From assembly GCA_030525245.1 (NCBI GenBank), contig JAUNFB010000002.1:12720-48748 (forward strand): DNA of 36,029 nucleotides. Direction: 5' to 3'. A model generated the notes under the pieces. That model worked only from the letters and a program-made list of their open reading frames with translations, was not told the origin of the DNA and did no database searches. This stretch comes from Erysipelotrichia bacterium. Its GTDB lineage: Bacteria > Bacillota_I > Bacilli_A > Erysipelotrichales > Erysipelotrichaceae. Shown one piece after another: positions 31,724 through 35,620 of this stretch (within the stretch, counting starts at the first letter, position 1; each line of letters opens with the position of its first letter). Both the position numbers and the translations under genes were made by a program.

Positions 31724-32326
31724 ATGGAGACTTTGAGGTTAAAGATAACAGAATTATTAGGAACTTTATTTATCGCAATATTGATTTATTTGGATGATAT
31801 TTTAGATACGATAGTTACCGTAATAACAACTGCTGTTGTTTGTTTAATAGTAACGCATTTTATTTTTATGCCGGTAAGAGTCAAGGGAACGAGTATGTAT
31901 CCGACACTATATGATCAATCTATCGGGTTTTCTAATATTATCGGTAGAAAACTCGGAGGACTGAAGAGATTCGATATCGTTATTATTCATATTGATGAGA
32001 AAGATGAAAATTTGGTAAAACGGGTAATCGGTTTGCCTAACGAAACAATTTCTTATACTGAAGGAGTGCTTTATATAGATGGAAGAGCTGTGGAAGAGGA
32101 GTTTTTGGATCAGGATTATGTAAAACAACAATTAGAATTTTCTTATCATGATTATTTTACCGATGATTTTACATATACTTTATCTGATGACGAATATTTT
32201 TGTATGGGTGATAATCGTCTTGTTTCTTCAGATTCCCGTTTTTACGGACCGTTTAGCAGTGACAAAATAATTTCAAAAGGTATATTTATAATTTATCCCT
32301 TTTCCAAATTCGGATCAGCTCAATAA
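31724..32326 (+). CDS. lepB: Signal peptidase I
   Basis: It removes signal peptides from exported proteins at the outer face of the membrane. The 200 residues have a membrane helix at about 30-48, the catalytic Ser57 in VKGTSMYPTL, the general base Lys99 in LVKRVIGLP, and the MGDNRLVSSDSRFYGP signature near 167-182. The N-terminal 30 residues may form a further helix or in-plane segment. AGGAGGG four bases before the ATG is a strong ribosome site. No promoter fits between the rplS terminator and the start, so expression depends on read-through or on a promoter inside rplS. Confidence 0.95.
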   Translation: METLRLKITELLGTLFIAILIYLDDILDTIVTVITTAVVCLIVTHFIFMPVRVKGTSMYPTLYDQSIGFSNIIGRKLGGLKRFDIVIIHIDEKDENLVKRVIGLPNETISYTEGVLYIDGRAVEEEFLDQDYVKQQLEFSYHDYFTDDFTYTLSDDEYFCMGDNRLVSSDSRFYGPFSSDKIISKGIFIIYPFSKFGSAQ

Positions 32327-32335
32327 GGAGATTTT

Positions 32336-33175
32336 ATGAGTTATATTTCTATTGTTAAAGCTGCATTTATCGCTTTTCCTTTGGTTGCCGCAATCGTAAC
32401 CGTGCCATTTGTTTTAGTAGAATATCATAAATACGGTTCCGTTAATAAATTAAGAACATTGATTATTTATTCATTTATATTGTATATGATAACAGTGTAT
32501 TTCTTAGTTATTTTACCTTTGTCGGATATTGAAGATGTTCGCAATCTTACTACTCCGACAACTCAATTGATTCCTTTTAAATTCATTTATGATTTCATTA
32601 GCAACACTCCTTTGAAATTGAATGATTTCAGCACATATATACCGGCATTGAAACATCCCAGTTTTTATACCGTATTTTTTAATATATTAATGACTGTACC
32701 TTTTGGAATGTACTTAAATTACTATTACAAGTGTGATTTAAAAAAAGTTATAAAGTATAGTTTTATTTTGTCTTTGTTTTTTGAATTAACACAGTTGAGC
32801 GGCTTATATTTTATTTATCCGCGACCTTATCGACTGTTTGATGTAGATGATTTGATTATGAACACTTTAGGCGGTATCTGTGGTTACTTTTTAATGAATA
32901 AACTGAATCATTTATTACCGACGAGGGATGAAATAGATGAAAAATCATTCAATGACGGTTTAAAAATATCAGGATTAAAGAGACTAGTGTTATTTTTCTT
33001 AGATGGTCTGATATGTTCAGTGTTCATTACCTTTGTTATGATGTTTTTCAACTATTCTTTTGTCAAATATATTGTTATATTTATTTATTATATAGTGGTT
33101 CCTTTGCTTAATAACGATCAAACTCTTGGTAGTAAGTTCTTGAATATTAAATTTGTTGCTTCTAAATATAAATGA
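32336..33175 (+). CDS. VanZ-like/RDD membrane protein, stopped early by an in-frame TGA
   Basis: The 279 residues up to the stop contain a VanZ-like domain (membrane helices with VYFLVILPL, TQLIPFKFIY, FELTQLSGLY and DVDDLIMNTLGGICGYFL, about residues 40-195) and the first part of an RDD domain (LKRLVLFFLDGLICSVF to DQTLGSKFLNIKFVASK). VanZ-type proteins are implicated in glycopeptide tolerance; the RDD domain is of unknown role. Translation stops at TGA 33173-33175 in the middle of the RDD domain, but the same frame stays open to 33445. AAGGAG precedes the ATG. A recent nonsense mutation or read-through are both possible. Confidence 0.75.
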   Translation: MSYISIVKAAFIAFPLVAAIVTVPFVLVEYHKYGSVNKLRTLIIYSFILYMITVYFLVILPLSDIEDVRNLTTPTTQLIPFKFIYDFISNTPLKLNDFSTYIPALKHPSFYTVFFNILMTVPFGMYLNYYYKCDLKKVIKYSFILSLFFELTQLSGLYFIYPRPYRLFDVDDLIMNTLGGICGYFLMNKLNHLLPTRDEIDEKSFNDGLKISGLKRLVLFFLDGLICSVFITFVMMFFNYSFVKYIVIFIYYIVVPLLNNDQTLGSKFLNIKFVASKYK

Positions 33176-33445
33176 TTATATCTGTTAATCAGAACAGCAA
33201 TTATTTATGTTTATTGGTTATTATTCCCTACATTATTGCTTTTTCTGACTGCTTTAGTTATTAATGTTTTTGAGTTCAGTGATATAGAAATAACCGCGGC
33301 TTATTTTATTGATTTAATGATATTTTTCTTATATTATTTAATCTCGCTTATAAATTTATTGTCCGGCAGAAAGATGTTCTACGATCGATTTATTAAAGTT
33401 CAGTGCGTGAGCACAATTAAAATCGATGAAAGGAAAAATGCATGA
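33176..33445 (+). pseudogene. C-terminal part of the VanZ-RDD gene, in frame after TGA
   Basis: Directly after the TGA the same frame continues for 89 codons (LYLLIRTAIIYVYW onward) and completes the RDD domain with two membrane helices and GRKMFYDRFIKVQ. A lone downstream start (TTG near 33236) has no ribosome site, so this is best seen as the tail of the upstream gene. Its stop overlaps the next gene's start as ATGA, the normal coupling expected if ribosomes reach this point. Ordinary codon composition shows no sign of long decay. Confidence 0.7.
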
Positions 33446-34185
33446 AAGATAATTTTTATCAACAAATATTTAAAAGAAAGTCATTTCACTTATTTCGAAA
33501 TTGTCCTGCTGAACCTTTGAATGAGGAAATATTACTGAAAATTAAAGAGAAATATTATCAGCTAAATAAGTTATATCCGAATATTATAACCGATATTCAA
33601 ATCGTTAAGGGAAATTATCGAGGTGAACAATATGACATTTTATTTTACAGCGAAATTAAAGATAACTATTTGCGCAATATTGGCTATATTGGGGAACAAT
33701 TAGATTTATATTTGACAGGATTAAATATCGGATGTCTGTGGTACGGAATGGGTAAACCTGCAGAAAACGAGTATAATGGTTTGAAATTCGTTATTATGAT
33801 GCTGATCAAAAAAGTACCGGATGATAAATTCCGTAAGGACATGTTTAAAAGCAAGCGAAAAGATATTGCTGAAGTGTGGTGGGGAGAAAATCATAAAGAT
33901 GTTGGAAATATAGTCCGTTTTGCTCCTAGTGCTTGTAACAGTCAGCCATGGTTGGTGAAAGATAATGCTGAAAGTTTAGAAGTCTATCGCTACAGAAAAA
34001 AAGGCCGAGTAGGAATTATGCCAAAAGATAAAGTCAGTTATTATAATCAAATTGATATCGGTATATTTCTTCTTTTTATCGAAGTTGTGTTACAAGAAAG
34101 AAAAATTACTTTCGAAAGAAAACTTTTTGATGATAAAGAAACAGAAAATGAATCGGTTCTTTCGGCGATATATTATTTAAAATGA
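33442..34185 (+). CDS. Nitroreductase-like protein (TM1586 type)
   Basis: The 247-residue protein looks like the TM1586_NiRdase branch of the nitroreductase fold, flavin proteins with two pseudo-symmetric halves. Visible features are the opening FKRKSFHLFRN, the middle IGEQLDLYLTGLNIGCLWYGMGKP near 90-115, and the second-half FAPSACNSQPWLV near 158-170, the family's FMN-site sequence. Substrate is unknown. The ATG overlaps the stop of the VanZ-RDD frame, with AAAGGAAA just upstream. The family position suggests a redox enzyme, possibly for oxidised or nitro compounds, but this is only inferred. Confidence 0.72.
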   Translation: MKDNFYQQIFKRKSFHLFRNCPAEPLNEEILLKIKEKYYQLNKLYPNIITDIQIVKGNYRGEQYDILFYSEIKDNYLRNIGYIGEQLDLYLTGLNIGCLWYGMGKPAENEYNGLKFVIMMLIKKVPDDKFRKDMFKSKRKDIAEVWWGENHKDVGNIVRFAPSACNSQPWLVKDNAESLEVYRYRKKGRVGIMPKDKVSYYNQIDIGIFLLFIEVVLQERKITFERKLFDDKETENESVLSAIYYLK

Positions 34186-34225: not shown

Positions 34226-35620
34226 ATGAAAGATATTTATGTGATAATTATTGCTTTTGTTGCGTTGCTGACAGGAGTATTAGTGGATTACTTGATTCGC
34301 AAAAGCAAAATTGATTATTTAGATAAAGAAAAGGAAAACAGCTTACGCAAAATTGATGAATTGCAAAAACAATATGAGCAAGTAAACCTGCTGTTAAACA
34401 GTTGCAAAACTGATGTGGCAGTTAAGGAAGAAAAAATAAAGGATTTAACTTCTAATGTTGAAAAACTGCAAATTGTTAATACTGATTTGATGAACGAAAA
34501 AAACAAGTTAAGCGTACAATTAGCCGATATCAGAGCATCTAAATCAGCAATTGAAGAAAGCAACAAAAATCTAAAACAGTGGATCGAAAAATCCGAAAAT
34601 CGACTTAAGGATTCCTTCTCCAGTTTGTCTAAAGATATAACCGAAAATAATTCAAAGTTTTTTTTGGATAATGCTAATGAAAAATTGAATGATTTTGCAT
34701 CTAAATTGAAAGAGAATTTACAAGGTAATAATGAAAAAGTTGATAGTATGGTTAAACCTGTAGATACAGAGTTGAAAAATCTGCAAGAAAAAATGACAAG
34801 TTTAACGGAAAGAGTAGATAATCTAAAAAGTCAAAACAGTGAATTGAAAAATGCGACCGATATGTTGAATAATACTTTAAAAAACAACTCATTGCGAGGC
34901 AAATGGGGTGAAGAACAATTGCGTAAGATTGCCGAATTATCAGGAATGATTGCACATATCGATTTTGAGGAACAAGAAACAAACGGCAAAGGAAGCAGAC
35001 CGGATATGGTTATTCATTTAACTGGCGGAAGGACTATACCGGTTGACAGTAAAGTGCCGATGAATGCATATATTAAATATTTAAATGAAAGTGATGATCA
35101 ACAGAGAAAAAAATATTTAGATGAGCATGTCAAGTCTGTGCGCAACCATATTGATACTTTAAATAAAAAAGCTTATTGGAAAGATGAGAAGAGAGCAGCT
35201 GAATTGGTAGCGATGGTTGTCCCTTATGAATCCGGCCTATCAGCAGCTTTTAGCACTGATCAAAACATATTTAGTTATGCGATGGAAAAGAATGTTCTTT
35301 TGTTGTCTCCAATGACCTTTTATGCTTTCTTGAAATCTGTTTCAATCGGCTGGCAAGAAAATGCGATGAGTAAAAATGCTCAAGAAATTGCCAATTTAAG
35401 CAAAGAATTGATAGGCCGTTTTGAAAAGTTTTTCTCTTATATGGAAAATGTTGGAAAATCGATCAATGATGCCCGCGATCAGTATGACAAAGCGATGTCT
35501 TCTTATAATACGAGATTGTCGGTTACTTTTAATCGTTTTAAGCAATATAGTACTGCTTCAGATATGATCGAAGAGAAACCGACATATATGTTGACGGATA
35601 ATAACAGTAAAGATGAATAA
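34226..35620 (+). CDS. rmuC: DNA recombination protein RmuC
   Basis: RmuC limits rearrangements at inverted repeats and belongs to the PD-(D/E)XK nuclease group. The 464 residues have an N-terminal membrane helix (about 4-22), a long coiled coil (about 30-215), and the RmuC domain: SLRGKWGEEQLRKIAELSGM, GSRPDMVIHLTGGRTIPVDSKVPMNAYIKYL and YEKNVLLLSPMTFYAFLKSV-like sequence. The E, D and K of the nuclease core appear in GEEQL, RPDMV and VDSKV. AGAGGTGGG lies ahead of the ATG. It is separated from the preceding gene by 40 bases and may be in the same unit. Confidence 0.93.
   Translation: MKDIYVIIIAFVALLTGVLVDYLIRKSKIDYLDKEKENSLRKIDELQKQYEQVNLLLNSCKTDVAVKEEKIKDLTSNVEKLQIVNTDLMNEKNKLSVQLADIRASKSAIEESNKNLKQWIEKSENRLKDSFSSLSKDITENNSKFFLDNANEKLNDFASKLKENLQGNNEKVDSMVKPVDTELKNLQEKMTSLTERVDNLKSQNSELKNATDMLNNTLKNNSLRGKWGEEQLRKIAELSGMIAHIDFEEQETNGKGSRPDMVIHLTGGRTIPVDSKVPMNAYIKYLNESDDQQRKKYLDEHVKSVRNHIDTLNKKAYWKDEKRAAELVAMVVPYESGLSAAFSTDQNIFSYAMEKNVLLLSPMTFYAFLKSVSIGWQENAMSKNAQEIANLSKELIGRFEKFFSYMENVGKSINDARDQYDKAMSSYNTRLSVTFNRFKQYSTASDMIEEKPTYMLTDNNSKDE

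Follow-up and report, generated by a model that had tools for sequence, protein, structure and literature searches.

A VanZ-RDD fusion gene of an Erysipelotrichia bacterium interrupted by an in-frame TGA, probably through a recent nonsense mutation

The stretch of 36,029 nucleotides analyzed here (hereafter the window) carries, next to the signal peptidase gene lepB, a gene for a VanZ-RDD fusion protein that is cut in two by a premature stop codon (Table 1). The in-frame TGA is present in the assembly on the plus strand and closes the open reading frame (ORF) after codon 279. Behind it the same frame stays open for 89 codons, until a second TGA at 33443-33445 which overlaps the ATG at 33442 of a nitroreductase-like gene in an ATGA motif. 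The initial annotation of this DNA had reported the in-frame TGA, the intact frame behind it and the ATGA coupling, and all three are confirmed at these positions.

Table 1. Genes and features around the interrupted VanZ-RDD gene, in window coordinates.
Feature	Position	Strand	Basis or remark
lepB (signal peptidase I), left neighbor of the insert	31724..32326	+	Pfam Peptidase_S26, E = 9.8e-40
VanZ-RDD fusion gene, whole	32336-33445	+	cut by TGA at 33173-33175
VanZ-RDD gene, 5' part, 279 codons; VanZ whole, RDD module cut	32336..33175	+	Pfam VanZ and alignment with 52 relatives
In-frame TGA	33173..33175	+	sense codon at the site in 52/52 aligned relatives
Orphaned in-frame 3' part, 89 codons and terminal TGA; second half of RDD	33176..33445	+	profile match E = 1.5e-12, codon usage
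Nitroreductase-like gene, start overlaps terminal TGA	33442..34185	+	Pfam TM1586_NiRdase PF14512, E = 2.8e-23
rmuC-like gene, same insert as VanZ-RDD	34226..35620	+	Pfam RmuC PF02646, E = 3.3e-81

The lepB gene has an orthologous position after rplS in the genomes G001, G004, G005 and G006 of the same genus. In G001 it is followed by the block rbgA-rnhB-dprA-topA-trmFO, and likewise in G005 with one gene between (as read from two ORF lists). In the window genome this block lies approximately 6 kb after lepB, and a lineage-specific insert between lepB and rbgA holds the broken VanZ-RDD gene, the nitroreductase-like gene, rmuC and two further longer ORFs; the names of genes outside the window were read off their translations, without family searches. 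Homologs of the nitroreductase are found in five of the six genus relatives, on other contigs and at 51-57% identity, and the best matches to the rmuC-like gene in the six other genus genomes are 21-28% identical. The trmD gene is present in all six at 66-68% identity. Full-length VanZ-RDD was found in none of them: a search with the 279-residue protein gave weak matches to the VanZ part in G002 and G005, and the read-through protein used as a query gave no match in the six. Since these genomes hold no full-length copy, the VanZ-RDD gene is, judged by gene content, accessory, and its loss would be cheap.

The part of the protein before the stop contains the VanZ domain (Pfam PF04892; E = 3.1e-25, residues 47-187, 89.7 bits vs. 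a cut-off of 30.1). The Pfam RDD profile reaches 17.6 bits before the stop, under its cut-off of 24.1, and has no match in the part behind it. When six relatives were scanned with Pfam, VanZ was found in every one and RDD exceeded the cut-off in one (L008, 37.7 bits), and this speaks for calling the C-terminal module RDD. For the window protein itself the RDD domain named in the initial annotation is weak by Pfam; its downstream part is homologous to the second half of the RDD module of the relatives. The window holds no complete RDD module in one open frame, the TGA falling inside it, and both halves are homologous to the relatives.

A run of 89 stop-free codons arose by chance in 25 of 20,000 trials under a Markov model with the dinucleotides of the window. 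Because 7 of the 35 window ORFs, the VanZ-RDD ORF among them, stay open for at least 89 codons past their own stop, the open frame by itself is weak evidence. In the other six ORFs with long extensions the ATG of the next gene comes within 0-4 codons, whereas behind the VanZ-RDD stop the first ATG is 47 codons off. It is the homology of the downstream peptide that decides that the extension is a genuine remainder of the gene. Taken alone, this peptide matches a profile of the C-termini of 11 relatives with E = 1.5e-12 (the best of 1000 shuffled peptides gave 0.018) and the 52-row profile with E = 4.6e-12 (best shuffled peptide 0.029). The codon-usage score per codon is 0.11 behind the stop, 0.08 in the RDD part before the stop and 0.19 in the whole upstream part, and the score of the 3' part was equalled by 1 of 2000 random stretches. 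A restart of translation behind the stop is unlikely, as nothing resembling a Shine-Dalgarno sequence occurs in the 20 bases that precede the in-frame TTG at 33236.

Homologs were collected from a scan of genome contigs (43 loci), from 100 of 272 genomes in a family search, where most matches were weak and confined to VanZ, and from 104 of 315 genomes in an order search. Of the resulting 76 loci, two (L001, L002) belong to the window itself; the alignment took in 52 of the other 74, all of them foreign. The 22 left out comprise L013 (a near copy of L012), L046 (VanZ only), L052 (no match for its first 21 residues), L058 (with an earlier frameshift) and 18 loci with weak or partial matches (L003, L004, L059-L063, L065, L067-L076). 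All 52 aligned relatives have a sense codon at the site (Leu 22, Phe 12, Trp 6, Ile 5, Val 3, Thr 2, Lys 1, Gly 1), the assignment for the distant relatives depending on an alignment that is gapped immediately ahead of this column, and they run 74 to 112 residues past it, one of them 377. Outside the alignment, L013 and L052 are also open past the stop region. With a stop at the site in none of the 52, nothing suggests a conserved stop. The comparison of relatives proposed in the initial annotation accordingly favors a recent mutation. The TGA can also be dismissed as the normal C-terminus of the protein, an outcome that the initial annotation had named as contrary to its reading: no aligned relative ends there, and L046 ends approximately 90 residues earlier, right after its VanZ domain.

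L046 (positions 2193-2771) is a natural stand-alone VanZ protein without RDD that is close to the VanZ-RDD family, its VanZ part being 57% identical. Two further copies of the family are themselves damaged. A relative from a Tenericutes MAG (L058:3001-4082) is broken by a frameshift near residue 135 and otherwise open, and another (G153:C1:1171806-1172931) is split into pieces; the family thus decays now and then. When viral contigs were scanned for the exact pattern, one position of the stop codon being left free, no other allele was matched.

A tree of 53 rows places the window protein as sister to 11 MAG proteins, the set of 12 having support 96/91, and the nearest relative of the window protein, L034, is approximately 50% identical to it over the whole length. 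Compared with 12 close relatives, the mean identity is 0.595 for VanZ, 0.336 for RDD before the stop and 0.243 behind it. Being divergent throughout, the window protein is the second lowest of 13 in each part. Its ratio of downstream to upstream identity, 0.72, ties for the lowest, the relatives spanning 0.72-0.93. There is no clear excess of decay behind the stop in this comparison of sequences, which is a blunt test at no more than about 50% identity to L034. Beyond the premature TGA no lesions were found in the 3' part, which has kept its open frame, its profile match and its codon usage.

We consider it probable that an accessory VanZ-RDD gene recently suffered a nonsense mutation, by which the VanZ domain was spared and the RDD module cut. 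At the UGA, ribosomes would be terminated with the help of RF2, giving a protein of 279 residues in which VanZ is complete and roughly half of the RDD membrane module remains, and the 89 codons of the 3' part would still be RDD-like because decay has had too little time. The stop, its absence from the relatives, the homology behind it and the failure to detect a UGA-decoding factor are observations; production of the truncated protein, a partial or complete loss of its RDD function and the recency of the event are inferred from them. The truncated product may retain part of its function, by analogy with L046, which shows a VanZ protein of this group living without RDD.

That same protein invites the view that the truncation is a useful form, with VanZ lacking RDD being selected and the tail on its way out, and many of the VanZ matches of the family search are indeed short VanZ-only frames. 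Unlike in L046, however, the stop in mid-RDD leaves approximately 65 residues of a cut membrane module, and no relative was seen with a stop at the site; we regard a useful truncation as extremely improbable.

The main rival of a nonsense mutation, although on balance unlikely, is an error of assembly or sequencing, or a draft consensus that took up the allele of a minority strain, the true or prevailing gene being intact. The draft genome, in 133 contigs, has a completeness of 88.89% and a contamination of 3.04% and may be of metagenomic origin, and the change affects a single codon in undecayed surroundings. On the other hand, the 35 window ORFs include no other extension resembling a split gene, as each of the other six long ones leads straight into a new gene. 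Of the three readings offered in the initial annotation, a recent nonsense mutation is thus the best supported and a sequencing error is possible, whereas the third, functional read-through of the UGA, found no support.

In functional read-through some ribosomes would insert Trp at the UGA and go on to complete VanZ-RDD, so that the full and the truncated protein are both made. An intact frame behind the stop and an ATGA overlap are equally expected of a read-through gene under selection. In addition, Trp, the likeliest residue to be inserted by misreading of UGA, stands at the column in 6 of the 52 relatives, and it is mainly for this tolerance that we retain read-through at all, as a quite improbable alternative. 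None of the 52 relatives shares the stop, and neither UGA-decoding machinery in the draft nor a stem-loop at the site was found. The region 33170-33260 forms no stable structure after the stop (z -0.66; 49 of 200 shuffles fold as well), and the base following the TGA (+4) is U.

The draft encodes RF2 (500.5 bits vs. a cut-off of 370), and its gene begins with a 24-codon leader ending in CTT TGA C, which we take to be the RF2 autoregulatory frameshift. Two TAA codons within the RF2 match belong to the shifted frame and precede the frameshift site. An RF2 with a UGA-controlled frameshift start means that UGA is a working stop in this genome. A change of the genetic code is rejected for this reason, and also because no tRNA with a UCA anticodon was found and 5 of the 35 window ORFs, that of VanZ-RDD counted, end in TGA. 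The anticodon count, 0 of 55 tRNA genes, comes from a tRNA family search and ARAGORN on a draft 88.9% complete, from which one tRNA could be missing (ARAGORN gave 56 predictions for the 55 genes, one gene lying in two loci). Selenocysteine insertion is likewise rejected: the best of seven SelB matches in the 88.9% complete draft has 176.8 bits, under the cut-off of 242.25, and there is no stem-loop behind the stop; tRNA-Sec was covered by the general tRNA search only.

The tRNA-Trp(CCA) gene that looks chromosomal (L144:98-171, on contig C82 of the window genome, G000) can form five anticodon-stem pairs, the top one being G-U, vs. A-U (four) or G-C (two) in the six genus relatives. A leaky UGA switch can be imagined on this basis, in which the tRNA with the weakened top pair would misread some UGA as Trp and give a VanZ-only-like protein with a minor share of full VanZ-RDD; we hold it to be very improbable. 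Were read-through true, the locus would let the leakiness of UGA be tested in nature, in a Bacillota-like lineage whose tRNA-Trp stem is weakened. A second tRNA-Trp(CCA) gene, of 84 bases and with a longer variable arm, belongs to an array of 22 tRNA genes in 7 kb (G000 contig C31:5000-12000, L142) that looks like a phage-type tRNA array.

The available part of one report ties UGA decoding by tRNA-Trp(CCA) to an anticodon stem of four pairs with the top pair unpaired (PMC13092985). Common to that system and the window genome are UGA, tRNA-Trp(CCA) and a Trp tolerated in some relatives. The window genome differs in that all five stem pairs can form, RF2 is standard and the stop is unconserved (compared with PMC13092985 as far as its accessible text goes). 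Read-through is described, in the part of the source at hand, as reduced with +4U and worst with UGA-C (PMC5289835), and the U at this position in the window therefore speaks against it.

Fusion membrane proteins of VanZ and RDD are a described class, at least in the accessible portion of PMC12419801. The window gene has in common with them an N-terminal VanZ followed by an RDD-type membrane module, and the relatives have at least 354 residues; the difference is that the window copy is cut inside the RDD module (PMC12419801, same portion).

In-frame stops in bacterial genes are, according to the available text of PMC7918605, widespread and mostly short-lived, at the scale of population polymorphism, and many of them are argued there to be read through. 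The window case differs in being known from one genome of its species. As a nonsense mutation it would be an ordinary case, an accessory gene for a membrane protein that has begun to decay, or else an error to be put right in the annotation. With the nonsense-interrupted genes of the same text it shares a single in-frame stop, an intact frame behind it, a sense codon in the relatives and the accessory nature of the gene, and since such stops are widespread in bacteria, the VanZ-RDD gene falls inside a known class (PMC7918605).
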